From positions 58,195 to 122,194 of IMG/VR virus record IMGVR_UViG_3300005841_000030: a DNA stretch of 64,000 nt, one strand, 5' to 3'. A program made the translations under genes and the position numbers. Every line of letters starts with the position of its first letter. The first letter of the stretch is position 1. The DNA comes from a virus. The notes beneath the pieces were generated by a model. The model made no database searches and was not told the DNA's origin. It saw only the letters and a list, made by a program, of their open reading frames with translations. Of the stretch, positions 13,801 through 40,519 are shown in pieces.

Positions 13801-13890
13801 ATCATTTATTTCCATAGTTTTTATTCTTTTTATAGGTTTTCTTCCATATCCTAGCCAAAATTCTTTTAATTCATCTATGAAAGTTTCCAT
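10879..13890 (-). CDS. Large multi-module repeat protein of unknown function
   Basis: 1003 residues with no signal peptide. It is built from roughly ten divergent modules, each opening with a pattern like [FL]-x-x-G-[KD]-W-Y: IGKWYKI (about 33), EGNWYEG (about 196), EGEYYVA (about 272), GKNYRFTW (about 436), VGDWIWD (about 515), IGKWYEC (about 740). Two near-copies of IQQYLP[DE]GHIDK link modules. The module size and strand pattern suggest small SH3-like beta barrels. No enzymatic motif found. Possible roles are a scaffold binding many partners or an inhibitor array; both are speculation. Confidence 0.75.
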   Translation of the reverse strand: METFIDELKEFWLGYGRKPIKRIKTMEINDLAIGKWYKIHGGRYMKPLILMNNKLKADTIHLAKSLGNQVGLNLDVDNSDWWKYAEPMKDLEEIQQYLPDGHIDKVINWEVGKCYTTLEDNINKRWQIFKIKNETTCYYLNPMVDVFFKDQSIKGNIYNKFVPSTEDEIEWMELCIKKGKFVPKPVKSKELELIEGNWYEGLYGGNRHVFHYLGNKGNYFKVDKYINHNNFPQTGNWDGFAGKKSWIDLKPANMEEVFKYFPEERPKNDVKIEGEYYVADNGNIHKWGTTDSEYHFTGTSTTCNTGFSKGGGCFLREGDRKANSDEIQWLECCIKANKFIPKKQALKSTESILLQETKKLFSIGTKFYQLYADSSSNYDKIIEIFNQDFKIDGDGEILYDNQWRLYVPIGKGIWASKLENKPMETKLENGKNYRFTWTWNNKTIELYDAIIGINIVESREAYLDGGSRQNIAINLKEIANLQEIPAKKENFPMKEEQWIPQVGDWIWDKEGKYLSIKENPTIITSINGDQIFSKDRNSTPSWIGREYFFDVYRKALPHEIPNSSSMEPKNEDWCVLVEGNPSLSHDVREFLNKKHRNNWCGGQKYYGEKGLKDYAPSSNIPWGKVLTPEEFYKKIGKSMEKKEENLVGRYLKALKDGPQSIGTMKKGDYLLITRIDSPTTGSGTFLNKVWSWNYNNVTTGISWELMPIGFIPPNKEESKFVIGKWYECECYSNREKRTIKIEKIDPSLIWGDYIQNSTFYKQGAYVPSEITPIKEISISEIQQYLPEGHIDKLPIKTMEKFKIGDKVRCIGDTDKKKDGKTSSGWVKGMEFHIDRISEDIAWPKSGNGVYFEHIELVSKMSEKESFLIEAKKRFPVGCKFKPITQVEGVSKSIYKQEKECTLYNEKSDNDWWIIGSWNVYCKATNSWAEIVEYPNNYGKISMGEMKDFSRIIYSNPIEKKPSITIDSEVTNIKLKKSASVTLKNTEKEVVISVKKSKPILLTI

Positions 13891-23622: not shown

Positions 23623-23859
23623 TCAAATAAAACCTAATTCAATATAAGGAGATAATCTATTATCCCTCTCAATTAGCTTATTAAGGAGATATTCACATGT
23701 CTCAATAGAAACAATAAATCTCTTCCTAATACGTCTAGTAGTAATAAACGGGTCACAAGTAGCACTATTAATACCATTCTTATACACATTTCTATGATAT
23801 TTGGAAAGAATAGCTAATTGTTTATTCTCTTCTAATACATCAAGATTTATCTTAGCCAT
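23623..23859 (-). CDS. 78-residue hypothetical protein
   Basis: MAKINLDVLEENKQLAILSK, then ITTRRIRKRFIVSIETCEYL and LNKLIERDNRLSPYIELGFI. Helical and basic in the centre. Overlaps 23847-24086 by 13 nt. Confidence 0.55.
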   Translation of the reverse strand: MAKINLDVLEENKQLAILSKYHRNVYKNGINSATCDPFITTRRIRKRFIVSIETCEYLLNKLIERDNRLSPYIELGFI

Positions 23860-24086
23860 ATAATATACGGATAAGGCTCTTCAAACATAGCAAACCAACT
23901 ATCAATAGTCCTATTAATAGGATTAATTGGTTCATATTTAGAGTTATTAATTAATATAACTGATAAGACGCTACAAAGATCTTTATTAATATCAATAGAC
24001 GGATTACATATGTTGATAGTCTCATACCATTTTCCACTTGATTTAAATATACGTATTTTCATATTAGTTATATTATTTAATGCCAT
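23847..24086 (-). CDS. 79-residue hypothetical protein
   Basis: MALNNITNMKIRIFKSSGKW then a beta segment, VLSVILINNSKYEPINPINR and a tail ending YPYIIWLR. An internal ATG at 24062 may be the real start. Unknown. Confidence 0.5.
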   Translation of the reverse strand: MALNNITNMKIRIFKSSGKWYETINICNPSIDINKDLCSVLSVILINNSKYEPINPINRTIDSWFAMFEEPYPYIIWLR

Positions 24087-24105
24087 AATAATGAATAAAT
24101 AGTGT

Positions 24106-24648
24106 TTATTTCTTGAGTTTTAGGTCTAATCCTTCCCATAATTGACCTTCTCCATTGATAAGTCTATATGTTCTAACATTAGCAAATGTTGTAAGCTTAA
24201 TTCTTTCAAATTTAAGACCGTAATCAGCTTCTGTAAATGCATTAGTTATGTTATTTTCTATTGTTTCAGGAATACAATCAATTAGGTTATTATTACATAT
24301 AAAATCACTCATTTTACCCATAGCAATATTACCTATTGTCATATCTGGCATATAAAGAGTGTTAAATAGCTTAGAAATATTCACAATACTATATCCAACA
24401 CTAGAAGATACAGTAATCGTATGACCATCCTTGGTAGTTAAAGTCTGTATTGGAAGAGTAATTGTTCTTAATCTCTTCTCTTGAACATATATACTATCTA
24501 ATAATGGCAGCTTCAAATAAACCCCTTTATCTAATAATGTAATATGTTTACCAAATCTAACTCTTATTCCCTGCTCCCAAGGCATGACAATCACCCACCA
24601 TGTAAATAGTTTACTTATGTAGTCTATAATTTCTTTAAATATACCCAT
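24106..24648 (-). CDS. SPFH/Band-7 (prohibitin/stomatin-like) domain protein
   Basis: 180 residues from ATG 24648 (MGIFKEIIDYISKLFTWWVI); a TTG at 24708 would add 20 residues and is less likely. A hydrophobic N-terminal segment leads into the SPFH core: VMPWEQGIRVRFGKHITLLD, GVYLKLPLLDSIYVQEKRLR, then LPIQTLTTKDGHTITVSSSV. The order is the same as in HflK/HflC and stomatins. The protein is short and lacks the usual long C-terminal coiled coil. It should assemble at the inner membrane. It may mimic HflKC control of FtsH or organise membrane microdomains; both are inference. Confidence 0.8.
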   Translation of the reverse strand: MGIFKEIIDYISKLFTWWVIVMPWEQGIRVRFGKHITLLDKGVYLKLPLLDSIYVQEKRLRTITLPIQTLTTKDGHTITVSSSVGYSIVNISKLFNTLYMPDMTIGNIAMGKMSDFICNNNLIDCIPETIENNITNAFTEADYGLKFERIKLTTFANVRTYRLINGEGQLWEGLDLKLKK

Positions 24649-24857
24649 GAGTGATAATTGTTTAATAGTTAGTAATAGAGAATATAATGCTATAACAATT
24701 GAATACAACTAGTTTATTTGAATAATCGTTTAAGCGAATATACAGTTATAGTGATAGTACCACAACTCTAAAACACTCAAATCAATTAAATTTCACACTA
24801 TTTTGACATCAAACAGTGTATCACTCAATTAATATGTATATATAATAGAGTGAATAA

Positions 24858-24998
24858 TTAAGTTATCCACTCTAATGCATTATTTGCATCTTCTTTGGAG
24901 AAATAGAAACCAAATATGTCTCCATCTTCATCAATTATGCACCATTCTTCTCCAAGAGGAGAAGTATAATTGTCTGGAATCAAGCTTATTCTCCACAT
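24858..24998 (-). CDS. 46-residue hypothetical protein
   Basis: MWRISLIPDNYTSPLGEEWC, then IIDEDGDIFGFYFSKEDANN and ALEWIT. Acidic, mixed alpha/beta. Isolated between long non-coding stretches (24709-24857 upstream of SPFH holds only AT-rich sequence with a short CACT...AGTG repeat). Confidence 0.5.
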   Translation of the reverse strand: MWRISLIPDNYTSPLGEEWCIIDEDGDIFGFYFSKEDANNALEWIT

Positions 24999-25033
24999 AA
25001 TATTAATAGTTTAATTTACTCCTTATATATAGA

Positions 25034-25065
25034 TGTATAAAAAAGAGGCCATTACAGCCCCTTTT
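25034..25065 (-). terminator. Rho-independent terminator, first of a tandem pair
   Basis: Minus-strand stem AAAAGGGGCT against GGCCTCTTTT with two wobble pairs, loop GTAA-like, followed by six T. No gene ends here. It would stop a transcript coming from the inverted repeat at 25095-25180. Confidence 0.6.
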
Positions 25066-25094
25066 CCATTTCAACCTAAACCCATTTACTACCC

Positions 25095-25180
25095 AAACAG
25101 AATATTCTTTGGTATAAGACCCCTAAAAATAGGTATTGGTATATACAACAAATTACATTTCACCAAATATTATTCTGTTT
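25095..25180 (-). ncRNA. Inverted repeat between two terminators, candidate small RNA
   Basis: A 19-nt arm at 25095-25113 is matched by 25162-25180 (17 of 19 complementary). The 48-nt centre carries a small CCTA-AAAA-TAGG hairpin. The element sits between a terminator for the upstream gene (25196-25223) and another terminator just downstream (25034-25065). It looks like a discrete short transcription unit, though I found no good promoter. A DNA-level site for a dimeric protein is an alternative. Confidence 0.4.
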
Positions 25181-25195
25181 AAGTATAAATAGGTG

Positions 25196-25223
25196 TATAA
25201 AAGGAGAGCATTGCTGCTCCCCT
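25196..25223 (-). terminator. Rho-independent terminator after 25232-25624
   Basis: Minus strand: AGGGGAGCA-GCAA-TGCTCTCCT, a 9-bp stem (one wobble) with a GNRA loop, then TTTTAT. It starts 8 nt past the stop codon of the preceding gene. Confidence 0.8.
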
Positions 25224-25231
25224 CTCGTTAA

Positions 25232-25624
25232 TTACCAAGCCAATTCTTCTGGATTAAGCACTTCAGCTTCAATTGCTGCAACATTAATCTTCTCAACAGC
25301 AATCTCATGAACTCCACCAGTTGGAGGCATTGCTACAAACTGACGCAATTCACCTTTGTCATCTTCTGTTTCAATGACATTCAATCCTGCTAATTGGGAG
25401 ATTGTCAGCTTTTTAGCTCTGAACATCTCACTCACCTGCTTGCTACATGGAACAACAGCAGAATTACCAGCTTTGTTAGTAAGAACAACAACAACTCTCT
25501 TAGTGAGGTCATTGTAATTCTTCCTAAGGAAGCCAATCTTTCCACCTTTTCCAGCAAGATCTTTCACTGTGCCAAGGTCAGTAAGCTCTGCTGTACTGCC
25601 TTCATACTTCTTAAATTCTACCAT
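25232..25624 (-). CDS. Hypothetical protein, probably abundant early product
   Basis: 130 residues: MVEFKKYEGSTAELTDLGTV, a central beta region with KRVVVVLTNKAGNSAVVPCS, an HTH-like helix pair (VSEMFRAKKLTISQLAGLNV) and an acidic tail (IEAEVLNPEELAW). The codons are less AT-rich than those of its neighbours, as in highly expressed genes. It has its own strong terminator. First gene of the minus arm next to the divergent region. A ssDNA-binding or regulatory role would fit its position but is not shown. Confidence 0.7.
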   Translation of the reverse strand: MVEFKKYEGSTAELTDLGTVKDLAGKGGKIGFLRKNYNDLTKRVVVVLTNKAGNSAVVPCSKQVSEMFRAKKLTISQLAGLNVIETEDDKGELRQFVAMPPTGGVHEIAVEKINVAAIEAEVLNPEELAW

Positions 25625-25677
25625 AATACTTGTTTTTAATTGTGTTTTTGTTTTTTAATTCTCATTTGTTCTTAACC

Positions 25678-25709
25678 GGGGAGTGATGTCAACTCCCCAA
25701 ACTTGGGAG
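25678..25709. promoter_or_regulatory. Competing hairpins in the divergent region
   Basis: CTCCCC at 25693-25698 can pair either with GGGGAG at 25678-25683 (6 bp, loop 9) or with GGGAG at 25705-25709. The element is 54 nt upstream of the 25232-25624 ATG, so it may be its leader. The rest of 25625-25850 is AT-rich with no gene and no other feature I can support. Confidence 0.35.
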
Positions 25710-25850
25710 GGGTGGCTTGGTGGAGGTACACTACTCTCTCTTTAACATAAAAAATTCCTTAAATTTGGAAAATTTTTTATTTTTTCCTTCTCTAAAACAC
25801 ATCTCTTCTACTCCAAACTAGATTGATATTCCACCTTTTACAGTCTTATA

Positions 25851-25882
25851 TTTGGAAATGTCAAACCTTTTACATATATTTG
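25851..25882 (+). promoter_or_regulatory. Bacteroides-type promoter reading toward the tRNA array
   Basis: TTTG at 25851-25854, 20-nt spacer, TATATTTG at 25875-25882: an exact match to the Bacteroides consensus. It faces the tRNA genes, but a terminator at 26007-26039 lies between. Confidence 0.65.
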
Positions 25883-25948
25883 TCCCATGTTAAATAATAA
25901 TTTACGCCCCTTACAGCATTCACATTCGCTCCCTAGTTATCTAGTGGA

Positions 25949-26039
25949 GGAGGGGATATTTGTGTTTAATTATAGTTGATTCAGAACAACTTTTTAAAAC
26001 TTCAGAAAACCCCTCCTTAAAACAGAGGGGTTTTTTATT
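25949..26039 (+). promoter_or_regulatory. Attenuator-like leader with competing terminator and antiterminator
   Basis: Terminator: AAACCCCTC (26007-26015) pairs with GAGGGGTTT (26025-26033), followed by TTTATTT. Antiterminator option: GGAGGGG at 25949-25955 is fully complementary to CCCCTCC at 26010-26016 and would remove the terminator's 5' arm. The element lies between the promoter at 25851 and the first tRNA at 26042. It could control tRNA expression or end a short RNA of about 150 nt. The switch is inferred from complementarity alone. Confidence 0.5.
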
Positions 26040-26041
26040 TT

Positions 26042-26114
26042 CTAGGTGTATATCAATTGGTAGATTACCTGGTTTGGGACCAGGAGGCTGTAGGATCATA
26101 CCCTACCATCTAGA
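26042..26114 (+). tRNA. tRNA-Pro (anticodon TGG)
   Basis: Acceptor CTAGGTG/CATCTAG (7 bp with one wobble), anticodon stem CCTGG/CCAGG around TTTGGGA, T-stem GTAGG/CCTAC, discriminator A. First gene of the array; starts immediately after the terminator. Confidence 0.85.
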
Positions 26115-26116
26115 CT

Positions 26117-26187
26117 TTTAATATGGTGTAATGGATGCACATCAGATTTTGAATCTGAGAGTTTGGGATCATGACCCAATATTAAAA
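26117..26187 (+). tRNA. tRNA-Gln (anticodon TTG)
   Basis: Acceptor TTTAATA/TATTAAA, anticodon stem TCAGA/TCTGA with loop TTTTGAA, T-stem TTGGG/CCCAA. Two nucleotides after tRNA-Pro. Confidence 0.85.
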
Positions 26188-26189
26188 CT

Positions 26190-26260
26190 GTGTCTGTAGC
26201 TTAATGTAAAGTCTCACCCTGTGAAGGTGATGGATATGGGGTCGATTCCCATTAGACACC
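26190..26260 (+). tRNA. tRNA-His (anticodon GTG)
   Basis: Acceptor GTGTCTG/TAGACAC, anticodon stem TCACC/GGTGA with loop CTGTGAA, T-stem ATGGG/CCCAT, discriminator C as expected for tRNA-His. The -1 position in the DNA is T, so the extra G would have to be added. Confidence 0.85.
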
Positions 26261-26265
26261 TATTT

Positions 26266-26335
26266 CTTTCTGTAGCTTAAAGAAAAGCGATTGAATACGA
26301 ATCAATCAGATGAGGTTTCGCACCCTCCAGAAAGT
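26266..26335 (+). tRNA. tRNA-Arg (anticodon ACG)
   Basis: Acceptor CTTTCTG/CAGAAAG, anticodon stem ATTGA/TCAAT with loop ATACGAA. The T-arm is slightly irregular (GAGG/CCTC, enlarged loop TTTCGCAC). Expected to be deaminated to ICG to read CGN. Confidence 0.75.
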
Positions 26336-26339
26336 CTAT

Positions 26340-26419
26340 GCTCCTGTGACATATGCAAAATGGTACAGCTACTAGTTTTAGAAACTAGGTTATTATAGGT
26401 TCGAATCCTATCAGGAGTA
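26340..26419 (+). tRNA. tRNA-Leu by anticodon (TAG), but with a short variable region
   Basis: Acceptor GCTCCTG/CAGGAGT, anticodon stem CTAGT/ACTAG with loop TTTAGAA, T-arm ATAGG-TTCGAAT-CCTAT. The anticodon TAG reads CTA (Leu). The variable region is only about 6 nt, whereas Leu tRNAs normally carry a long arm, and the D-arm is enlarged and hard to pair. Charging identity is therefore uncertain. Confidence 0.65.
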
Positions 26420-26422
26420 CAT

Positions 26423-26511
26423 GTCCCTATGGTGAAAATGGCAGCACACGTTAGACTTAAAATCTAAAGCGAAGTAATAGTAGCGTGAAGGTTCGAAGCC
26501 TTCTAGGGATA
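26423..26511 (+). tRNA. tRNA-Leu (anticodon TAA)
   Basis: Acceptor GTCCCTA/TAGGGAT, anticodon stem TTAGA/TCTAA with loop CTTAAAA, long variable arm, T-arm GAAGG-TTCGAAG-CCTTC. Typical class II tRNA. Confidence 0.9.
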
Positions 26512-26516
26512 CATAA

Positions 26517-26603
26517 GGAGGGTATCTGGCTGGATGAAGAGCTTGTCTTGAAAACAAGTAGGTCGGTAATACTGGCTTGTGAGTTCGAGTCTCACATCCT
26601 CCT
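26517..26603 (+). tRNA. tRNA-Ser (anticodon TGA)
   Basis: Acceptor GGAGGGT/ATCCTCC, anticodon stem CTTGT/ACAAG with loop CTTGAAA, long variable arm, T-arm GTGAG-TTCGAGT-CTCAC. The discriminator appears to be T rather than the usual G. Confidence 0.85.
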
Positions 26604-26606
26604 CAT

Positions 26607-26691
26607 AGAGAGTTGACAGAGTGGCTTATTGTGTTTGTTTGCTAAACAAAAGGGTGTAACAGCTCCAGGAGTTCAAATCTCCTACTCTCTT
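26607..26691 (+). tRNA. tRNA-Ser (anticodon GCT)
   Basis: Acceptor AGAGAGT/ACTCTCT, anticodon stem TTTGT/ACAAA with loop TTGCTAA, long variable region, T-arm AGGAG-TTCAAAT-CTCCT. Reads AGC/AGT. Confidence 0.85.
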
Positions 26692-26696
26692 CAAAA

Positions 26697-26782
26697 CTGT
26701 AAGTATCCAAATTGGTGAAGGAGACAGACTGTAAATCTGTTGCCACTGGCTAAACTTGTAAGTTCGAATCTTACCTTGCAGA
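26697..26782 (+). tRNA. tRNA-Tyr (anticodon GTA)
   Basis: Acceptor CTGTAAG/CTTGCAG, anticodon stem ACAGA/TCTGT with loop CTGTAAA, long variable arm, T-arm GTAAG-TTCGAAT-CTTAC, discriminator A. Class II, as bacterial tRNA-Tyr. Confidence 0.9.
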
Positions 26783-26892
26783 CAAAAATAAATTAATAAA
26801 TATTAGGAATTGTAGGTTTTATTTACTACGTTTGTGATATGAAAATAAAGAGTGTTAATAATTCTGAACAAATAGAGACTGAGGAACATATT

Positions 26893-26964
26893 GTTCCTGT
26901 CATCTAATGGCTAGGATATTACACTTTCAATGTAAAAAAGAGGGGTCGAAACCCTCCAGGAATG
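26893..26964 (+). tRNA. tRNA-Glu (anticodon TTC)
   Basis: Acceptor GTTCCTG/CAGGAAT, anticodon stem TTACA/TGTAA with loop CTTTCAA, T-arm GAGGG-GTCGAAA-CCCTC, discriminator G. Preceded by a 110-nt spacer containing TACGTTTG (26827-26834), a possible -7 box without a clear -33 box. Confidence 0.85.
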
Positions 26965-26970
26965 CTAAAA

Positions 26971-27093
26971 ATGAAGAAAGATATTAAGATTAATTTAATA
27001 AAACTATTAGAAGAAAATGGTGGAAAATTTAGTTTTTTCCCAGAATGGACTTTGATAGGAACAGGTAAAGGTAAATTAACATCTATAAAATAA
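26971..27093 (+). CDS. Possible 40-residue protein within the tRNA array
   Basis: MKKDIKINLIKLLEENGGKF then SFFPEWTLIGTGKGKLTSIK. It starts 7 nt after tRNA-Glu and has an ordinary amino-acid composition with a helix and a beta hairpin. A further 28-codon frame at 27100-27186 is weaker. Either may be spacer sequence. Confidence 0.35.
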   Translation: MKKDIKINLIKLLEENGGKFSFFPEWTLIGTGKGKLTSIK

Positions 27094-27210
27094 AGAATTA
27101 TGAAAAGGAATTGGTTTAATATTATATTCACCATGTTTGCGACAAGAGATTGTGGCAAGGTGGGAGTATATTGTTGGAGCCAATAAAAGAATATAACACA
27201 AGTTATAATT

Positions 27211-27240
27211 AAGGCTCCCCAAAAAGGAGCCTTTTTTATT
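27211..27240 (+). terminator. Rho-independent terminator inside the tRNA array
   Basis: AAGGCTCC (27211-27218) and GGAGCCTT (27226-27233) form a perfect 8-bp stem with a 7-nt loop, followed by TTTTATT. It divides the array into an upstream and a downstream transcription unit. Confidence 0.85.
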
Positions 27241-27243
27241 TAT

Positions 27244-27317
27244 GGGGGATCATGTACCAAGGCTGGCGAGATTGCTTTGCAAGCAGACTGAGTAGGATTC
27301 GATTTCCTAATTCTCCA
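27244..27317 (+). tRNA. tRNA-Ala (anticodon TGC)
   Basis: Acceptor GGGGGAT/ATTCTCC with wobbles, anticodon loop TTTGCAA on a 4-bp stem, T-arm TAGGA-TTCGATT-TCCTA, discriminator A. Starts four nucleotides past the terminator. Confidence 0.8.
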
Positions 27318-27323
27318 CATAAT

Positions 27324-27396
27324 AGTTCTGAGGTCAAATGGTTAAGATGTCCCACTGTCTATGGGTACGGAGAGGGTTCAAATCCCTTCAGAACTG
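27324..27396 (+). tRNA. tRNA-Asp (anticodon GTC)
   Basis: Acceptor AGTTCTG/CAGAACT, anticodon loop CTGTCTA on stem TCCCA/TGGGT (end pair mismatched), T-arm GAGGG-TTCAAAT-CCCTT, discriminator G. Confidence 0.85.
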
Positions 27397-27399
27397 CAA

Positions 27400-27470
27400 G
27401 GGTTGTTAGTACAATGGTAGTACGAGTGACTGTTAATCACTGAATGGTAGTTCGATTCTATCACTTCCCT
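27400..27470 (+). tRNA. tRNA-Asn (anticodon GTT)
   Basis: Anticodon stem AGTGA/TCACT with loop CTGTTAA, T-arm GGTAG-TTCGATT-CTATC. The acceptor GGGTTGT/ACTTCCC has two T-T mismatches in the middle, so stability is reduced. Confidence 0.75.
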
Positions 27471-27476
27471 CAATAC

Positions 27477-27546
27477 ACACTTCAGGCTATGGTAGCCAAG
27501 GAGTCTCCAAAACTTCAGGACATCAGTTCGATTCTGTGGAGGTGTG
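27477..27546 (+). tRNA. tRNA-Trp (anticodon CCA)
   Basis: Acceptor ACACTTC/GAGGTGT (7 bp), anticodon stem GGAGT/ACTTC with loop CTCCAAA, T-loop TTCGATT on a weak stem, discriminator G. The anticodon is CCA and not TCA, so it gives no sign of TGA decoding. Confidence 0.8.
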
Positions 27547-27552
27547 CAATAT

Positions 27553-27626
27553 TCCCTACGTAGCTCAACAGGTGGAGCAATAGTTTTGTAAACTGGAGGC
27601 TGTCAGTTCAAATCTGACCTAGGGAT
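27553..27626 (+). tRNA. tRNA-Thr (anticodon TGT)
   Basis: Acceptor TCCCTAC/CTAGGGA (six of seven paired), anticodon loop TTTGTAA on a partly wobbled stem, T-arm GTCAG-TTCAAAT-CTGAC, discriminator T. D-arm GCTC...GAGC is clear. Confidence 0.8.
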
Positions 27627-27663
27627 CATGGTGATAGTACGAAGATATAGGTTATTCTAATAA

Positions 27664-27735
27664 ACTCCTGTAGTTTAAATGGAAAAACTATGCTCTTCTA
27701 AAGCATCATTCAGAGTTCGAATCTCTGTAGGAGTT
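27664..27735 (+). tRNA. tRNA-Arg (anticodon TCT)
   Basis: Acceptor ACTCCTG/TAGGAGT, anticodon stem ATGCT/AGCAT with loop CTTCTAA, T-arm CAGAG-TTCGAAT-CTCTG. Reads AGA, the dominant Arg codon in this genome. Confidence 0.85.
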
Positions 27736-27740
27736 CATAT

Positions 27741-27817
27741 TGAGATGTATCCTCTCACGCTTATATCGTGTAGAAAAGGTAATTGGTCACATAAGGGTTC
27801 GACCCCCTTCATCTCTA
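27741..27817 (+). tRNA. tRNA-like gene without a D-arm (anticodon TAT, Ile?)
   Basis: Acceptor GAGATG/CATCTC with an end T-T, and a perfect T-arm AAGGG-TTCGACC-CCCTT. The only good anticodon hairpin is TCACG/CGTGT around CTTATAT, which gives TAT (reads ATA). Only 7 nt separate the acceptor from this hairpin, so there is no room for a D-arm. About 21 nt lie between it and the T-arm. It is either a truncated, rearranged or non-functional tRNA, or an unusual D-arm-less one. Confidence 0.45.
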
Positions 27818-27867
27818 CAAATTTTATTAATATGGAAACAGATAAAAAAGACTATGAGAAGATTTAT

Positions 27868-27938
27868 TCTCTCATAGCTCAATGGTAGAGCTGGAAGCTT
27901 TTAACTTTCAGATCATGGTTCGATTCCATGTGGGAGAA
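27868..27938 (+). tRNA. tRNA-Lys (anticodon TTT)
   Basis: Acceptor TCTCTCA/TGGGAGA, D-arm AGCTC...GAGCT, anticodon stem GGAAG/CTTTC with loop CTTTTAA, T-arm CATGG-TTCGATT-CCATG, discriminator A. Confidence 0.9.
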
Positions 27939-27943
27939 CATAT

Positions 27944-28016
27944 AGTAACTTAGCTTAGATGGGAAAGCATCTGACTGATATTCAGAAGAGAACAGGATCG
28001 TTACCTGTAGTTACTA
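27944..28016 (+). tRNA. tRNA-Ile (anticodon GAT)
   Basis: Acceptor AGTAACT/AGTTACT (perfect), anticodon stem TCTGA/TCAGA with loop CTGATAT, T-arm ACAGG-ATCGTTA-CCTGT, discriminator A. Confidence 0.85.
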
Positions 28017-28074
28017 CTTAAAATAAATATCATAAATCATTTGGAATTTATGATACTTCTTATTAAATTTGTAA

Positions 28075-28461
28075 ATGCCTATTAAAGACAAAGAAATAAG
28101 AAAAATAAAAAGCAGAGAATACCAAAAGAAACATTACGAAAGTAAGAAATGGTATTATAAGCAAAAAACAAAAGACAGAAAGAAGAACATATTAGATATG
28201 CTTTCTGAATTAAAACAAACTTTAAAATGTAAAAGTTGTGGAGAAGATCATCCTAGATGTTTAGATTTCCATCATAGAAATCCGAATGATAAGAAAATAT
28301 CTATCGCAAGAGTTGCAAATCAAGGATGGAGTTTAGAAAAAATAAAAGAAGAAATAAATAAATGTGATGTTTTATGCTCTAATTGTCATAGAAAATTACA
28401 CTATGAAGAAAATAATGTGGGTAGGGCTAGTGCCCCAGTGAGTCTCATAAGCTCACCTTGA
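28075..28461 (+). CDS. Free-standing HNH endonuclease inside the tRNA array
   Basis: 128 residues. A basic N-terminal helix is followed by CKSCGE, CLDFHHRNP, and VLCSNCHRKLHYE, the zinc-bound beta-beta-alpha HNH core. There is no large recognition domain. The last 15 codons run into tRNA-Met (28416-28485), so the natural C-terminus may be near HYEENN. It lies between tRNA-Ile and tRNA-Met, as expected for a homing gene invading a tRNA array. Confidence 0.85.
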   Translation: MPIKDKEIRKIKSREYQKKHYESKKWYYKQKTKDRKKNILDMLSELKQTLKCKSCGEDHPRCLDFHHRNPNDKKISIARVANQGWSLEKIKEEINKCDVLCSNCHRKLHYEENNVGRASAPVSLISSP

Positions 28462-28485
28462 CAGGAGCGTAACCTGTACCCGCAA
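28416..28485 (+). tRNA. tRNA-Met-type (anticodon CAT)
   Basis: Acceptor TGTGGGT/ACCCGCA (7 bp with one wobble), anticodon stem TGAGT/GCTCA with loop CTCATAA, T-arm ACAGG-AGCGTAA-CCTGT. No GGG/CCC anticodon stem, so not an initiator. Could be Met or a lysidine-modified Ile for ATA. Its 5' half overlaps the reading frame of the HNH gene. Confidence 0.8.
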
Positions 28486-28490
28486 CAAAA

Positions 28491-28565
28491 GGAACATGAG
28501 CTAGTCTGGTGATTCAGCGTGCGCCTGAAGAGCGCAAGAATATGGTTCAATTCCATAATGTTCCA
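28491..28565 (+). tRNA. tRNA-Phe (anticodon GAA)
   Basis: Acceptor GGAACAT/ATGTTCC (perfect), anticodon stem TGCGC/GCGCA with loop CTGAAGA, T-arm TATGG-TTCAATT-CCATA, discriminator A. Confidence 0.9.
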
Positions 28566-28567
28566 CT

Positions 28568-28681
28568 GTATGGGAAGTTGACTAGTGTATAAAAAGGAAA
28601 CTAGAGTCATAGTTAAACTTAAAGGCTTGGCGGTAATTAGCTGTTATACATAGTTCGTCCTAACTAAAACCGCCTCCATAC
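28568..28681 (+). ncRNA. Unassigned structured RNA between tRNA-Phe and tRNA-Val
   Basis: A closing helix GTATGGG (28568-28574) / TCCATAC (28675-28681) encloses a GACTAG...CTAGAGTC-type hairpin (about 28580-28607). A second domain is closed by GGCGGT (28629-28634) / ACCGCC (28669-28674), with an internal TAGTT-CGTCCT-AACTA stem (28651-28666). The last helix abuts the closing helix as a T-arm abuts an acceptor. It has no recognisable anticodon arm. Degenerate tRNA or new small RNA. Confidence 0.45.
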
Positions 28682-28752
28682 TTCAGTAGCTCAGAGATAG
28701 CAGCAACTCCCTTACATGGAGAAGGTCAATGGTTTGATCCCATTCTGAAGTA
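28680..28752 (+). tRNA. tRNA-Val (anticodon TAC)
   Basis: Acceptor ACTTCAG/CTGAAGT (perfect), anticodon loop CTTACAT on CTCC/GGAG, T-arm AATGG-TTTGATC-CCATT, discriminator A. Shares its first two bases with the structured RNA before it. Confidence 0.85.
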
Positions 28753-28756
28753 CAAT

Positions 28757-28828
28757 GCAGAACAGGTGTTGTTGAAGGCACTCCTGACTTCCAATCAGGG
28801 TGGTTGGGTTTGAACCCCAAGTTCTGCA
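28757..28828 (+). tRNA. tRNA-Gly (anticodon TCC)
   Basis: Acceptor GCAGAAC/GTTCTGC (perfect), anticodon stem CCTGA/TCAGG with loop CTTCCAA, T-arm TTGGG-TTTGAAC-CCCAA, discriminator A. Confidence 0.9.
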
Positions 28829-28857
28829 CTTTTGTCAAGTGTTTTTGAAAATAATTT

Positions 28858-28891
28858 CTCCCTGATTACTAGCTAGTTAGGGAGTTTTTAT
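28858..28891 (+). terminator. Terminator after tRNA-Gly
   Basis: CTCCCT (28858-28863) pairs with AGGGAG (28879-28884), loop of 15 nt with an inner ACTAG/CTAGT palindrome, followed by TTTTTA. It separates the array from the virion arm. Confidence 0.7.
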
Positions 28892-28901
28892 TTTAATCCC
28901 T

Positions 28902-28933
28902 ATTGCTTTATAATTAAATTCGTTATAACTTTG
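28902..28933 (+). promoter_or_regulatory. Bacteroides-type promoter before tRNA-Cys
   Basis: ATTG (28902-28905), 20-nt spacer, TAACTTTG (28926-28933). One mismatch in the -33 box. It follows the terminator, and the transcript would include tRNA-Cys and perhaps the virion operon. Confidence 0.55.
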
Positions 28934-28951
28934 GGGATGGGTGGCAGGGTC

Positions 28952-28980
28952 TTGGAATATACCCTAGTTAGATATTCCAA
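28952..28980 (+). promoter_or_regulatory. Perfect 9-bp hairpin downstream of the promoter
   Basis: TTGGAATAT (28952-28960) pairs with ATATTCCAA (28972-28980), 11-nt loop. The 14 bases TATTCCAAATATAA at its 3' side recur at 21263-21276, where they are also the 3' arm of a hairpin. Confidence 0.5.
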
Positions 28981-28989
28981 ATATAAAAC

Positions 28990-29060
28990 ATCAGGATGGT
29001 TGAGTGGTTAAACATAGATCTGCAAAATCTAGTACGTGAGTTCGAACCTCACTCCTGATT
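28990..29060 (+). tRNA. tRNA-Cys (anticodon GCA)
   Basis: Acceptor ATCAGGA/TCCTGAT (perfect), anticodon stem TAGAT/ATCTA with loop CTGCAAA, T-arm GTGAG-TTCGAAC-CTCAC. Last member of the array, with its own promoter. Confidence 0.9.
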
Positions 29061-29076
29061 CTAAACCAATAACAAT

Positions 29077-29163
29077 ATGGGATATATAATAGGAATAATC
29101 TTCATTTTAGCTCTTTGTGCTCCTGATGATAGATATAAGAAAAAGGAAGAAAAGAAGAATTAA
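29077..29163 (+). CDS. 28-residue membrane/secreted peptide
   Basis: MGYIIGIIFILALCAPDDRY then a Lys/Glu tail. It resembles a signal peptide with a lipobox-like Cys and almost no mature part. First reading frame after tRNA-Cys. Confidence 0.4.
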   Translation: MGYIIGIIFILALCAPDDRYKKKEEKKN

Positions 29164-29193
29164 AGGATAATATAGCAATTATTTATAATTATT

Positions 29194-29225
29194 CTTGTTA
29201 GTTATGATAATTCCTTTTACATTTG
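29194..29225 (+). promoter_or_regulatory. Bacteroides-type promoter of the virion operon
   Basis: CTTG (29194-29197), 20-nt spacer, TACATTTG (29218-29225). One mismatch in the -33 box. The next gene begins at 29238, so its leader would be very short. Confidence 0.55.
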
Positions 29226-29237
29226 TATTAATTACGT

Positions 29238-29597
29238 ATGGAAACCAAAGAACAGAAAGTCCTTTTACAAAGAATAAAGCTTACAGAGACACAATCTCTG
29301 AACATAGCTCAGAAATATTATTCTCTTCTTTCAGCTATAGGAAACTCTCCTTTAACAGAAAGAGAGATTCAATTAGTAGCTTTTACAGCCATTAAGGGAA
29401 ACATTTCTTATTCTTCTAATAGGGAAGAGTTTTGCATCTTGTATAAATCATCCTCCCCTACAATAAATAATATCATCTCCAAACTAAAGAAGATGAAAAT
29501 TCTAGTAAAGGATGCAGGAAAGATAAAGGTTGATCCTAAGTACCTCTTGGATTTTAATAAAGATATTGTTCTACAAATCTCCCTATTACATGGATAA
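29238..29597 (+). CDS. Winged-helix DNA-binding-like protein
   Basis: 119 residues. LTEREIQLVAFTAIKGNISY, then SSPTINNIISKLKKMKILVK and a beta wing (GKIKVDPKYLLDF) follow the order of a wHTH. It is the first gene of the packaging/virion operon and overlaps the IHF gene by 8 nt. Probable regulator or DNA-organising partner of the IHF protein. Confidence 0.6.
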   Translation: METKEQKVLLQRIKLTETQSLNIAQKYYSLLSAIGNSPLTEREIQLVAFTAIKGNISYSSNREEFCILYKSSSPTINNIISKLKKMKILVKDAGKIKVDPKYLLDFNKDIVLQISLLHG

Positions 29598-29940
29598 ACC
29601 TCAATCAATGTCTGATAAGGACTATCTAATTAGAGTGATGAGTATTAAAACCAATACTCCTGTAGCTACAATAGATGCTGTTATCTCACATCAATTTGAG
29701 GCAGCCAATGAAGCTCTTAAAACCAATAATACAATAGAGCTTTCAGGATTTGGGAAGTTTGTCTTTAAATTAAAGAAAGCTCATAAGAAATTAGAAAGGA
29801 ATATAGGTAAGAAGGAGTATTGGGAGAAAGCTCTGCAAGATAGTGCTCTAACAGACCAGAAGAGGCAATCTTACACAAATAAACTAAATAATACAATAAA
29901 AGAAATAGAAGTGTTGAAAACCAAATTGAAAGTAGAATGA
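29590..29940 (+). CDS. IHF/HU family DNA-bending protein
   Basis: 116 residues from ATG 29590. NTPVATIDAVISHQFEAANE forms the helical dimer body and IELSGFGKFVFKLKKAHKKL is the family signature. The beta arm is replaced by a long C-terminal charged helix (about residues 70-116). A subunit of this kind is a hallmark of crAss-like phages, next to the packaging genes. It likely bends phage DNA for packaging or transcription. Confidence 0.9.
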   Translation: MDKPQSMSDKDYLIRVMSIKTNTPVATIDAVISHQFEAANEALKTNNTIELSGFGKFVFKLKKAHKKLERNIGKKEYWEKALQDSALTDQKRQSYTNKLNNTIKEIEVLKTKLKVE

Positions 29941-30260
29941 ATTTCTTAGAAATATTTGAAGGTTGGCGAAATCATCTTCTCCCTCCTGAAAGATTAAAGG
30001 ATTTAATTAAACAAACCAGTGAAGAAAGACTAGCTATATGTGTAAAATGTATAGCTTATGATGAAACAGGAGAAGGATGTGCAATGCCTCTATCTCAACC
30101 TTGCTGTAATAAACATGTAAAAGTGGAAGGAACTTTAGGATGTGGATGTCCTTTAAAAAGTAAAACTAAATGTCTTTCATGTAGCTGTCCTGCTGATAAA
30201 TGGAAAGCCATTTCTACACCAGAACAAGAAGAAATAATAAACAGTAAATTAAACAATTGA
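29937..30260 (+). CDS. Cysteine-rich zinc-ribbon-like protein
   Basis: 107 residues with ten Cys from residue 35: CVKC, CAM, CC, CGC, CLSCSC. The spacing suits two zinc ribbons. A helical N-terminus (MNFLEIFEGWRNHLLPPERL) precedes. Small Cys-rich proteins of this kind occur in this position in related phages. Binding partner unknown. Overlaps IHF by 4 nt. Confidence 0.65.
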   Translation: MNFLEIFEGWRNHLLPPERLKDLIKQTSEERLAICVKCIAYDETGEGCAMPLSQPCCNKHVKVEGTLGCGCPLKSKTKCLSCSCPADKWKAISTPEQEEIINSKLNN

Positions 30261-30264
30261 ATAT

Positions 30265-30543
30265 ATGGAGCCTAGAGATTATAAGATGATCAATATCGAA
30301 GCTATGATGGAAGTATTGAATATGCTTTGGAATAAAGGAGTGGACTACGTTGATATATCTGGAAAACAAGGAGAAGATCAAGATGAAATATGCTTCTCCT
30401 TTTGTAGGGAATATATGGATGAGGAATATAAAGATACATTTGAAGACGGATTTATACAAGAAGAAGAGAATGAAATCATCTCAAAACCCACTCAACAAAT
30501 AAAGGTGAAATTAACAGATAAAGACATAGACGAATTAATTTAA
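30265..30543 (+). CDS. Acidic hypothetical protein
   Basis: 92 residues: YKMINIEAMMEVLNMLWNKG, then an acidic centre and tail (EEEYKDTFEDGFIQEEENEI). Helical. Lies between the zinc-ribbon gene and the terminase block. Unknown. Confidence 0.6.
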   Translation: MEPRDYKMINIEAMMEVLNMLWNKGVDYVDISGKQGEDQDEICFSFCREYMDEEYKDTFEDGFIQEEENEIISKPTQQIKVKLTDKDIDELI

Positions 30544-30549
30544 ATAGAT

Positions 30550-30855
30550 ATGGGAAGGAAACCAAACCACTACAACCATGTAATCCAAGTTCTACAAGAA
30601 CTTCACAAACTATACCCCTCATATACAATGAGTATGCATTTAGCCACTGCTCTAGACGGATACAGAGACATATGGGGAATTACAGACAAAGAACTCCTAT
30701 TCGCTTTAGAGAAATATAAAGCTCAATTGGAAATGGAACCTCCTCACACAGAAGGAGATGAACTAGAAGGTATAATTAAAGAAGGAATGAATCTATCCTT
30801 ATCTAGTATCTTAGGAGCAGATGATGAGGATATTAGAGAACAAGAAGATTACTAA
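30550..30855 (+). CDS. Conserved hypothetical protein of the packaging block
   Basis: 101 residues. MGRKPNHYNHVIQVLQELHK then ALDGYRDIWGITDKELLFAL and an acidic tail. Its position just before the small gene preceding TerL suggests a packaging role, perhaps part of a two-protein terminase small subunit; not proven. Its stop overlaps the next start by one base. Confidence 0.55.
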   Translation: MGRKPNHYNHVIQVLQELHKLYPSYTMSMHLATALDGYRDIWGITDKELLFALEKYKAQLEMEPPHTEGDELEGIIKEGMNLSLSSILGADDEDIREQEDY

Positions 30856-31184
30856 TGGCTAAGAAAGCAAATAACTACATTACTACAGAACTTGATTGGG
30901 CTGAACAACAACTTAAGTCTTGGAAAGCTTATGTAGATGCTAATCCATTACATGAGTTAAAAGATAGAATTGAATGGAAACCTACGAGTAAAGGAGGACT
31001 ACTCCCTATGGTTATTGCCTCAATTGAAGCTCAAGGTAAGTTCATTCAAGACACTATGAAGAACTATCTAGCTTTATTAGAAGTAGTAAATAATCTTAGA
31101 GAAAGAGAAGAAGCAAAGGTGGAAATTAGAGGAAAAGGAGAGCTTTCTGTTATGGCTTCAAATTTCCTTAAAGATAGAAAATGA
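30855..31184 (+). CDS. Candidate small terminase subunit
   Basis: 109 residues, fully helical: LDWAEQQLKSWKAYVDANPL, a central GGLLPMVIASIEAQGKFIQD helix and a C-terminal charged helix (LREREEAKVEI). It ends 4 nt inside TerL, the place where terS is expected, and has the right size. No HTH is evident, so the call is by position. Confidence 0.45.
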   Translation: MAKKANNYITTELDWAEQQLKSWKAYVDANPLHELKDRIEWKPTSKGGLLPMVIASIEAQGKFIQDTMKNYLALLEVVNNLREREEAKVEIRGKGELSVMASNFLKDRK

Positions 31185-33208
31185 CAAACGAAGTAAAATC
31201 TATAGATTATAAAGATTGGTTTATTAACCAAAAACGTATTCCAGATAAAGGATCTATAGAACATGAGGAGTTCTTTAATTTTCATAAGGAACTATGTTTA
31301 AATGGATGTATGATAGGAGGGGTTTATTTTAACCCCTTTTTGTATTGGCATTTAAATATATGGCACACAGAAGTAGACATAATTGACTCCAAAGGAAGAA
31401 TATCTCAAAAGTATTCCAACCCCTATCTCAGGGATAATGAATGGATAGTTACAGAAGCTATTGAAAAAGCTCACGAAGAAAAGAAAGGATTGGCAATAGG
31501 AGGGATAAGACGTTTAGCTAAATCAGTAATAGAAGCTTCTTATATAGGATGGGGGGCAACATTTGATGAAAATTCTCAGAATGTTATTTCAGGATTAAAT
31601 TCTCCTGATATAAAACTAGTGACAGATAAGATAGACAAGGGTTTAAACTTTATACCTGAAGCTTGGAGGTGGCAGAGAATTGAGGATAATTGGAAGAACC
31701 AAGTAACTCTAGGAGTTAAAACTAAAAGTGGAGAAAGAATCCCCTTCTCAGCTATCCTTATAAGGAACTTAGATGAGGGTAATAATGAAGAAGCTATTGC
31801 TGGTACAAAGCCTAGGAAACTAATTATAGATGAAGGAGGAAAAGGTAGTTTCCTAAGAGGTTTACAAGCTGCTATTCCAGGATTTACTACACCTTATGGA
31901 TGGGGATGTTCTCCTATAGTAACGTTCACAGGTGGAGATATGACTAAATTTGCAGATGCTAAACTCCTAATGTTTGATGTAGAAGCATTTAACTTCCTAT
32001 CTTATAATAATACAGAAGATACTAAAAGAGTACATGGACTATTCTTAGGTCACAAATATAGAATGGAGGCTAAACGACCTTCTAATCTAGCTGACTATTT
32101 ACAAATTGATTCTCCAGAACTTAAGAAAATAGAGATGTTAGTTAGTGATGAGGAGATAGCTAACAAAATAACAGATGATAATCTAGCTAGATCTAAGAAA
32201 GCAGGAGACAGAATAGCATATCTTAAGGAAAAAATGTACTATCCTAAAACAGTGGATGATATATTCCTTAATGAGAATACCAATATATTTGATATAGAAG
32301 CTGCTAGAAGACAAAAAGCAAGGCTCCTATCAAGAGGATTCACAGGAACCCCTGTAATTTTACATATGGGAGAAAATGGTATATATCATGAATTCACAGA
32401 CAAAAGACCTATAACTAATTTTCCACTAAAATCTACAGATGACAAAGATGCTCCAGTAGTAATTATAGAATTTCCAATGACTAACCCTCCCTATGGATTA
32501 TATACAGGAGGAGGTGACCCATATAGACAAGGTAAGGCTATATACAGTACATCTCTTGGAGCTATATACATATATAAAAGAATGCATAATATTCTTACTG
32601 ATAAATATCAAGAAATGCTTGTAGCATATTATGTAGCTAGACCTGATAAAAAAGAAAAATGGGAGGAGCAAGCTAGACTACTTATTAAATATTACAATGC
32701 AAGAGCCTTAATAGAAAATGATGAGATCTCTTTCATAGATCATATGAAAGCCAAAGGAGATGCTAATTATTTAGAACCTCAACCTCAATGGTTAAGAAGA
32801 GTTATACCAAATACTTCTCAAAATAGAGATTATGGTTTATCAAGATCTTCAGATAAAATAATTGATTTTCTTCATGGAAATCTTAAAAAATATACAGAAG
32901 AAATAATACATTCTGAAAAAGATGAACATGGTAATACAATAAAAGAAATCACAGGAATGTCTAGAATTCTAGATCCTATGCTTTTAGAAGAAATGATTCA
33001 ATACAATGAAGATGGTAACTTTGATAGAATTGTAGCAGCAGAACTAGCCATCACTCAAGCAATTGAAATGGACCCTATATACGGAAAAGCAACACAAGAG
33101 AATGAAAGAGCTAAATCCTTATATCAAGGAAATAAAGCAAAACCAACACTATTTGGGGAAACTCCATCCCTATTCAATAAAAAAAGAACACGTAAATTAT
33201 TTGCATAA
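31181..33208 (+). CDS. terL: Terminase large subunit
   Basis: 675 residues. The ATPase has a Walker A variant GIRRLAKS (about 108-115) and Walker B LIIDEGG (about 214-220), followed by the coupling-motif-like PIVTFTGGDM (about 245-254). The nuclease domain has D446 in YTGGGDPYRQ, E512 in ARALIENDE, and an acidic residue in SSDKIIDFL. Cuts and pumps DNA into the capsid. Directly upstream of the portal gene, with one-base overlap (TAATGG). Confidence 0.95.
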   Translation: MTNEVKSIDYKDWFINQKRIPDKGSIEHEEFFNFHKELCLNGCMIGGVYFNPFLYWHLNIWHTEVDIIDSKGRISQKYSNPYLRDNEWIVTEAIEKAHEEKKGLAIGGIRRLAKSVIEASYIGWGATFDENSQNVISGLNSPDIKLVTDKIDKGLNFIPEAWRWQRIEDNWKNQVTLGVKTKSGERIPFSAILIRNLDEGNNEEAIAGTKPRKLIIDEGGKGSFLRGLQAAIPGFTTPYGWGCSPIVTFTGGDMTKFADAKLLMFDVEAFNFLSYNNTEDTKRVHGLFLGHKYRMEAKRPSNLADYLQIDSPELKKIEMLVSDEEIANKITDDNLARSKKAGDRIAYLKEKMYYPKTVDDIFLNENTNIFDIEAARRQKARLLSRGFTGTPVILHMGENGIYHEFTDKRPITNFPLKSTDDKDAPVVIIEFPMTNPPYGLYTGGGDPYRQGKAIYSTSLGAIYIYKRMHNILTDKYQEMLVAYYVARPDKKEKWEEQARLLIKYYNARALIENDEISFIDHMKAKGDANYLEPQPQWLRRVIPNTSQNRDYGLSRSSDKIIDFLHGNLKKYTEEIIHSEKDEHGNTIKEITGMSRILDPMLLEEMIQYNEDGNFDRIVAAELAITQAIEMDPIYGKATQENERAKSLYQGNKAKPTLFGETPSLFNKKRTRKLFA

Positions 33209-40447: not shown

Positions 40448-40519
40448 GCGGGTTAGAGAAGTGGCCATCTCACAAGCCTCATAAGCTTGAAAACCTTGGT
40501 TCGAATCCAAGACACCGCA
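40448..40519 (+). tRNA. tRNA-Met-type (anticodon CAT), isolated in the head operon
   Basis: Anticodon stem CAAGC/GCTTG with loop CTCATAA and a perfect T-arm CTTGG-TTCGAAT-CCAAG. D-stem GAGA/TCTC is visible. The acceptor pairs only at the end four bases and the last one, so it is partly degenerate. It reads AUG or, if lysidine-modified, AUA. Not an initiator by its anticodon stem. Confidence 0.75.

Follow-up and report, generated by a model that had tools for sequence, protein, structure and literature searches.

A nonredundant tRNA array for all 20 amino acids in a crAss-like phage

A tRNA array with one gene per codon box

The window analyzed here (64,000 nucleotides) is the terminal 64 kb of a 122,194-base IMG/VR virus record (IMGVR_UViG_3300005841_000030), and it contains a compact tRNA gene array (Table 1). 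The array is real: 24 genes, comprising 23 clear tRNAs and one badly degenerate member, were supported by relaxed ARAGORN and Rfam searches and by the conserved gene order in two relatives. The 24 genes correspond to 24 codon boxes, each box being represented once, and all 20 isotypes are present; a preliminary description of the sequence had proposed the same gene number and isotype coverage. We lean toward the interpretation that the array is a near-minimal, complete decoding set, competent for translation, that would replace a depleted host tRNA pool.

With default settings, ARAGORN called 19 tRNAs within positions 26042 to 29061 and a tRNA-Met(CAT) at 40448; the latter had been listed in the preliminary description as a further CAT tRNA and was also retrieved by Rfam. 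Nineteen isotypes were recovered in this way (40448 included), and the twentieth, Ala, was recovered by the relaxed search and synteny. The relaxed search (-ps95) found 23 genes in the array, the gains being Arg(ACG), Ala(TGC), a Leu(TAG) gene misassigned to Ser(ACT), and a poor Ile(TAT). In the whole window, 17 genes (that at 40448 among them) exceeded the 29-bit cutoff of Rfam model RF00005, and Phe and Val also passed in a focused run. Leu(TAG), Ile(TAT), and Gly scored below the cutoff, and the model gave no hit in the window for Ala, Trp, or the array Met. Among the members that had been singled out beforehand as weak, Asn and Arg(ACG) proved solid in the covariance model search, whereas Leu(TAG) fell just below the cutoff and Trp, not reported by Rfam, was found by ARAGORN. 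No introns were called in the window tRNAs, no tRNAs were found elsewhere in the 122,194-base record, and a CCA end is encoded in none of the array tRNAs.

Each four-codon box is served by a U34 tRNA, with the exception of Arg(ACG), and each two-codon box by one G34 or U34 tRNA; the remaining boxes are those of Trp(CCA), Ile(GAT), the AUA-reader position, and Met. With 19 default calls in 3.0 kb, the array falls within the definition of a viral tRNA gene cluster (at least 15 tRNAs at a density of at least 2 per kb; Morgado and Vicente 2019). Clusters of at least 15 genes occurred in 228 viral genomes in the 2019 survey, eight of which had all 20 isotypes (PMC6409571), in agreement with the earlier remark that a full isotype set is uncommon.

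The phage is crAss-like (Crassvirales). Its terminase, portal, and major capsid proteins are of the crAss type (matches to phrog_6681, phrog_6547, and phrog_11589), and the list of open reading frames (ORFs) shows two opposed gene blocks, mostly on the minus strand up to 25.6 kb and on the plus strand from 29.2 kb. The array occupies the junction of these leftward and rightward blocks and opens the rightward (structural) one. The nearest named terminase relatives were Leptolyngbya phage Lbo-JY46 (40% identity), Cellulophaga phages (32%), and gut crAss-like phages. No DNA similarity was found between the structural region and known phages. Using the terminase to look for a host among contigs of bacterial genomes yielded matches to two metagenome bins and no host call.

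Conservation of the array in close relatives

Two close relatives, L001 and L002 (terminases 85% and 75% identical to that of the window phage), carry an array at the same place and in the same order, with 24 and 22 genes, respectively. Where stem pairs had changed between orthologous tRNAs, 92 to 96% still paired, figures that lean high because the parser, applied to genes placed by ARAGORN, favors pairing; two-sided compensated changes made up 73 of 99, 108 of 136, and 123 of 155 changed stem pairs. Anticodons were constant among the relatives, except that L001 has CAT where the window has the degenerate TAT element, and anticodon loops were nearly constant. Bases with established roles in charging were also retained, namely, G3-U70 in Ala (window, L001, L002, and the more distant carrier L153), U73 in Cys, G73 in Asp and Trp, and C73 in His. 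Judged by these substitution patterns, the array is under selection for fold and anticodon.

The strong stem compensation counts against a neutral or selfish origin, in which recombination and homing endonucleases gather tRNAs that are then retained without benefit, and which we regard as quite improbable. An HNH gene does lie inside the window array, and a homing endonuclease gene is also present in the array of Lbo-JY46. However, alignment showed no such gene at that place in L001 and L002, so that, of the three close carriers, the window phage alone has the insertion. Accumulation of this kind would also have to account for the lack of redundancy, since 24 uniform draws over 24 boxes would fill each box once with a P value of about 5e-10.

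Apart from Ile(TAT), each weak member is matched by a clean orthologue at the corresponding position in L001, L002, or both; covariance scores in L001 were 43.5 bits for Ala, 32.8 for Leu(TAG), 59.4 for Met, 69.5 for Gly, and 28.0 for Trp. The Ile(TAT)-like element retains an acceptor stem (with the first pair mismatched) and anticodon and T arms but has no usable D arm, and its counterpart in L001 is a tRNA(CAT). The array Met, read by hand, fits a cloverleaf except for a short D arm, and the L001 and L002 orthologues resemble initiator tRNAs (A11-U24). Given the missing D arm of the Ile(TAT)-like element and the damage to the array Met beside the HNH gene, the window phage may lack a healthy tRNA reader of its own for AUA, which makes up 49% of its Ile codons. 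Genes for tRNA-Ile(TAT) occur elsewhere (L153 5554, L154 1912, L283 5994, and L293 1611); such a tRNA would read AUA without lysidine.

A 28-codon ORF inside the array, MKRNWFNIIFTMFATRDCGKVGVYCWSQ, matched L001 and L002 alone in a pattern search of viral contigs. The motif TTACGCCCCTTACAGCA upstream of the array occurs in the window and L002 and was found neither in L001 (with up to two mismatches) nor in array-less relatives. The three close carriers share several genes that were not found in any of four array-less genomes, encoding a 509-amino-acid tail-fiber-like protein, a family 2 glycosyltransferase, a sugar C-methyltransferase/RmlD fusion, and a 1003-amino-acid protein of unknown family (located at G000 23712-31311 [L082] and window 10879-13890). 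These carrier-shared genes include no tRNA enzyme, and a partner gene gained together with the array was rejected.

Distribution and gene order among crAss-like phages

Among the fetched terminase relatives, the only other carriers were L153, Lbo-JY46, phi17:2, and the partial contigs L154, L155, and L156. In whole-record searches, 22 near-full-length array-less records (at least 99 kb) contained 0 to 2 tRNAs each, versus 21 to 25 in the full-array records. The array site in array-less relatives is a gap of about 250 to 1,065 bases before the same first rightward gene. Their sparse tRNAs were considered as array relics and rejected, as one Arg(TCT) alone looks related (74% over 61 bases). In the terminase tree, which has some long branches and is unsure in its details, a single clade of the three close carriers is nested within an array-less group and the distant carriers lie outside it, giving three state changes.

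L153, whose terminase is 75% identical to that of Lbo-JY46, has 24 genes for the same 24 boxes, with no duplicates. The phi17:2 locus has 24 genes with nearly the same anticodons as the window, and Lbo-JY46 has 21 tRNAs. Gene order differs, yet six adjacencies are common to the window and L153 and six to the window and phi17:2, where about one would be expected (P of about 5e-4 for L153 and likewise for phi17:2). For this comparison of order and boxes, the terminal pseudogene of phi17:2 was taken as Cys and the CAT tRNAs were assigned by eye. This excess points to a common ancestral array or to exchange between crAss-like phages. Because gene order is shared, loss of an ancestral array would be the simplest reading of the distribution, with transfer as the alternative.

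Phage phi17:2 (Lightbulbvirus; group G12 of Morgado and Vicente 2019) is also crAss-like (TerL about 31 to 32% identical to that of the window phage) and also has its array at the early/late junction, with shared adjacencies. It differs in that the array lies on the opposite strand relative to TerL, in another order and with one annotated pseudogene, and in its marine Cellulophaga host. In Lbo-JY46 and L153 (TerL 37 to 40% identical), the array immediately precedes TerL and shares its strand, with one tRNA per box, as in the window, and L153 also has the run Leu-Leu-Ser-Ser-Tyr. Unlike in the window, other genes are interspersed among the tRNAs, and the Lbo-JY46 array is without both Ser and without Tyr. 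Lbo-JY46 (PP438436) is recorded as a cyanobacterial phage, and it combines a crAss-like terminase with an array upstream of it; a check is warranted of its assigned host or of the range of hosts that crAss-like phages infect.

Large phage tRNA arrays are already known, and the present array adds one more. Xanthomonas phage XacN1 (PMC5852040) likewise has tRNAs for all 20 amino acids but is a jumbo phage in which redundant tRNAs are scattered in terminal repeats (28 parsed in one repeat, for 23 boxes). Parsed likewise, Xanthomonas phage X1 had 40 tRNAs over 21 boxes and Streptomyces phage Alone3 had 28 over 22; tRNA-rich phages outside the lineage thus carried 5 to 19 redundant tRNAs. The clusters of C1 mycobacteriophages (PMC10264068) are also large, and resistance to host tRNA depletion is the hypothesis put forward for them. 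They differ in that phage Rizal has 36 tRNAs and in the proposed escape via anticodon-loop mutations.

Proposed role of the array

The near all-or-none distribution would be expected of a replacement set, because failure of the whole pool could be offset by nothing less than a full set. We infer that the array tRNAs would be transcribed in the late-gene direction, matured by host RNase P and CCA-adding enzyme, and charged by host synthetases, and that they would sustain translation while the host pool is depleted by tRNA-cleaving defenses or host shutdown. Replacement under host tRNA depletion has been proposed for other phages (PMC11025619, PMC10264068); in the case of tail-cleaving effectors such as Cas12a3, viral tRNAs are, according to the authors, not expected to be readily helpful (PMC12851939).

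Alternatively, the tRNAs could supply codons that an AT-rich phage uses more than its host. The phage is indeed AT-rich (GC content at third codon positions [GC3], 0.19), U34 is present on every four-codon-box tRNA but Arg, and AUA shares are 0.46 to 0.50 in carriers versus 0.34 to 0.42 in four array-less relatives (G035, 0.33). Nevertheless, such codon compensation explains little, because two array-less relatives, G009 and G024, closely resemble the carriers in codon usage (GC3 of 0.18 and 0.21 versus 0.19 to 0.23; mean synonymous-fraction difference of 0.046 to 0.055); the array-less G013 and G035 are less similar. At 0.64, the AUA share is highest in G053, which has no array. Compensation also predicts partial, codon-biased sets, whereas this set includes Trp, Met, Cys, and His, with little or no codon choice. 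We therefore consider this explanation unlikely.

A replacement set is favored because two array-less relatives have close codon usage and because no tRNA enzyme occurred among the scanned proteins. Translation when host tRNAs are degraded or scarce, as the preliminary description suggested, best fits the nonredundant cover, the near all-or-none pattern, the selection on stems and anticodons, and the lack of a clear codon-usage signature. Several points weigh against it. Host tRNA depletion is a supposition. In the window phage, the AUA-reader position and the array Met show signs of decay, and L002 has no detectable tRNA-Val, so that completeness is not strict. Partial arrays occur in contig fragments (up to 8 tRNAs in L154 and L155 and 4 in L156), which may be cut, and the all-or-none pattern is drawn from metagenomic records carrying no completeness estimate. 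Finally, a scan covering a subset of the ORF products revealed no tRNA nuclease, RNA ligase, synthetase, or CCA-adding enzyme.

The purpose of phage tRNAs is an old open question, and a lineage with either 21 to 25 or 0 to 2 tRNAs constitutes a natural experiment. Since some members of these two groups have close codon usage, the contrast argues against codon compensation and for a set that acts as a whole. The cultured carriers phi17:2 and Lbo-JY46 make the array experimentally accessible.

A paired change in the T-loop

In 11 of 141 parsed tRNAs of crAss-like arrays, A54 and U58 replace T54 and A58. A54 occurred 13 times and U58 12 times, and they occurred together 11 times versus 1.1 expected (Fisher P of about 1e-13 for tRNAs that are not all independent). 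Six orthologous tRNAs differ at 54/58 between the window and L001, at both positions every time. The variant sites are Pro 26042, Gln 26117, Ile 27944, and Met 28418 in the window; Glu 1030 and Phe 2197 in L001; Gln 5212, Glu 5994, and Phe 6968 in L002; and L335 17065 and 22567, L283 5994, and L284 5841 in other records. Of 147 tRNAs from unrelated phages, 4 had the same combination (those in Xanthomonas X1, Fusobacterium FNU2, and an uncultured huge phage); it was absent from the 36 tRNAs of two bacterial metagenome bins. G55 occurred five times, in each case without the D-loop GG. T54-A58 is highly conserved in cellular tRNAs, and A54-A58 is a known eukaryotic variant (PMC7566577, PMC7912444); no account of A54-U58 was found in an incomplete search of the literature.

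Tentatively, phage tRNAs may repeatedly adopt a second, compensated elbow that hides them from host enzymes or defense nucleases, leaving the full array active while host tRNAs are destroyed. A54-U58 would remove the TrmA site (U54), and G55 with loss of the D-loop GG would remove the TruB site (U55); escape from elbow-reading enzymes is a guess. A related but doubtful explanation of the array is targeted antidefense, in which altered recognition sites evade specific tRNA-cleaving systems and full cover is a by-product of many attackers. Evasion of this kind has been proposed for the anticodon-loop changes of mycobacteriophages (PMC10264068) and shown for the evasion of retrons (PMC11555353), and the T-loop changes here could act likewise. 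On the other hand, anticodon loops are nearly unchanged between the relatives, and specific attackers predict partial sets. We also know of no phage defense nuclease shown to rely on the T-loop positions that are altered here. The covarying 54/58 swap is unexplained and less expected than the array, and as a testable structural change it is worth separate study.

Features of the window

Table 1. Array genes, associated elements, and the additional tRNA gene in the window
Feature	Position	Strand	Evidence
Terminator-like hairpin and T run, just upstream of array	26013..26041	+	Aligns in L001, L002
tRNA-Pro(TGG), A54/U58 T-loop ATCATAC	26042..26114	+	ARAGORN; Rfam 53.7 bits
tRNA-Gln(TTG), A54/U58 T-loop ATCATGA	26117..26187	+	ARAGORN; Rfam 53.1 bits
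tRNA-His(GTG), discriminator C	26190..26260	+	ARAGORN; Rfam 56.9 bits
tRNA-Arg(ACG)	26266..26335	+	Rfam 44.6 bits; relaxed ARAGORN; L001, L002 orthologues
tRNA-Leu(TAG), weak	26343..26419	+	Rfam 26.9 bits; syntenic Leu(TAG) in L001, L002
tRNA-Leu(TAA)	26423..26511	+	ARAGORN; Rfam 50.3 bits
tRNA-Ser(TGA)	26515..26603	+	ARAGORN; Rfam 31.5 bits
tRNA-Ser(GCT)	26607..26691	+	ARAGORN; Rfam 52 bits
tRNA-Tyr(GTA)	26697..26782	+	ARAGORN; Rfam 57.4 bits
tRNA-Glu(TTC)	26893..26964	+	ARAGORN; Rfam 53.8 bits
28-codon ORF MKRNWFNIIFTMFATRDCGKVGVYCWSQ	27100..27186	+	Same place inside arrays of L001, L002
Terminator-like hairpin, Glu-Ala interval, 3' of 28-codon ORF	27211..27233	+	
tRNA-Ala(TGC), weak D arm, G3-U70	27247..27317	+	Relaxed ARAGORN; parse; L001 orthologue 43.5 bits
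tRNA-Asp(GTC)	27324..27396	+	ARAGORN; Rfam 49.3 bits
tRNA-Asn(GTT)	27400..27470	+	ARAGORN; Rfam 57.7 bits
tRNA-Trp(CCA), imperfect T stem	27477..27547	+	ARAGORN; clean L001, L002 orthologues
tRNA-Thr(TGT)	27553..27626	+	ARAGORN; Rfam 47.8 bits
tRNA-Arg(TCT)	27664..27735	+	ARAGORN; Rfam 58.2 bits
Degenerate tRNA-Ile(TAT)-like element	27741..27817	+	Rfam 24.2 bits; relaxed ARAGORN
tRNA-Lys(TTT)	27868..27938	+	ARAGORN; Rfam 65 bits
tRNA-Ile(GAT), A54/U58 T-loop ATCGTTA	27944..28016	+	ARAGORN; Rfam 59.2 bits
HNH endonuclease gene, adjoins and overlaps array tRNA-Met	28075..28461	+	phrog_3106 E 4e-28
tRNA-Met(CAT), damaged D arm	28418..28486	+	Manual parse; L001 orthologue 59.4 bits
tRNA-Phe(GAA)	28491..28565	+	ARAGORN; Rfam 45.5 bits
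tRNA-Val(TAC)	28680..28752	+	ARAGORN; Rfam 50.9 bits
tRNA-Gly(TCC)	28757..28828	+	ARAGORN; Rfam 20.4 bits; L001 orthologue 69.5 bits
Terminator-like hairpin, Gly-Cys interval	28858..28884	+	
tRNA-Cys(GCA), U73	28990..29060	+	ARAGORN; Rfam 60.4 bits
Further tRNA(CAT), between late genes	40448..40519	+	ARAGORN; Rfam 52.5 bits; orthologue L001:13521

A gene for a Band 7/SPFH protein (PF01145) is located in the leftward block, at window positions 24106 to 24708.

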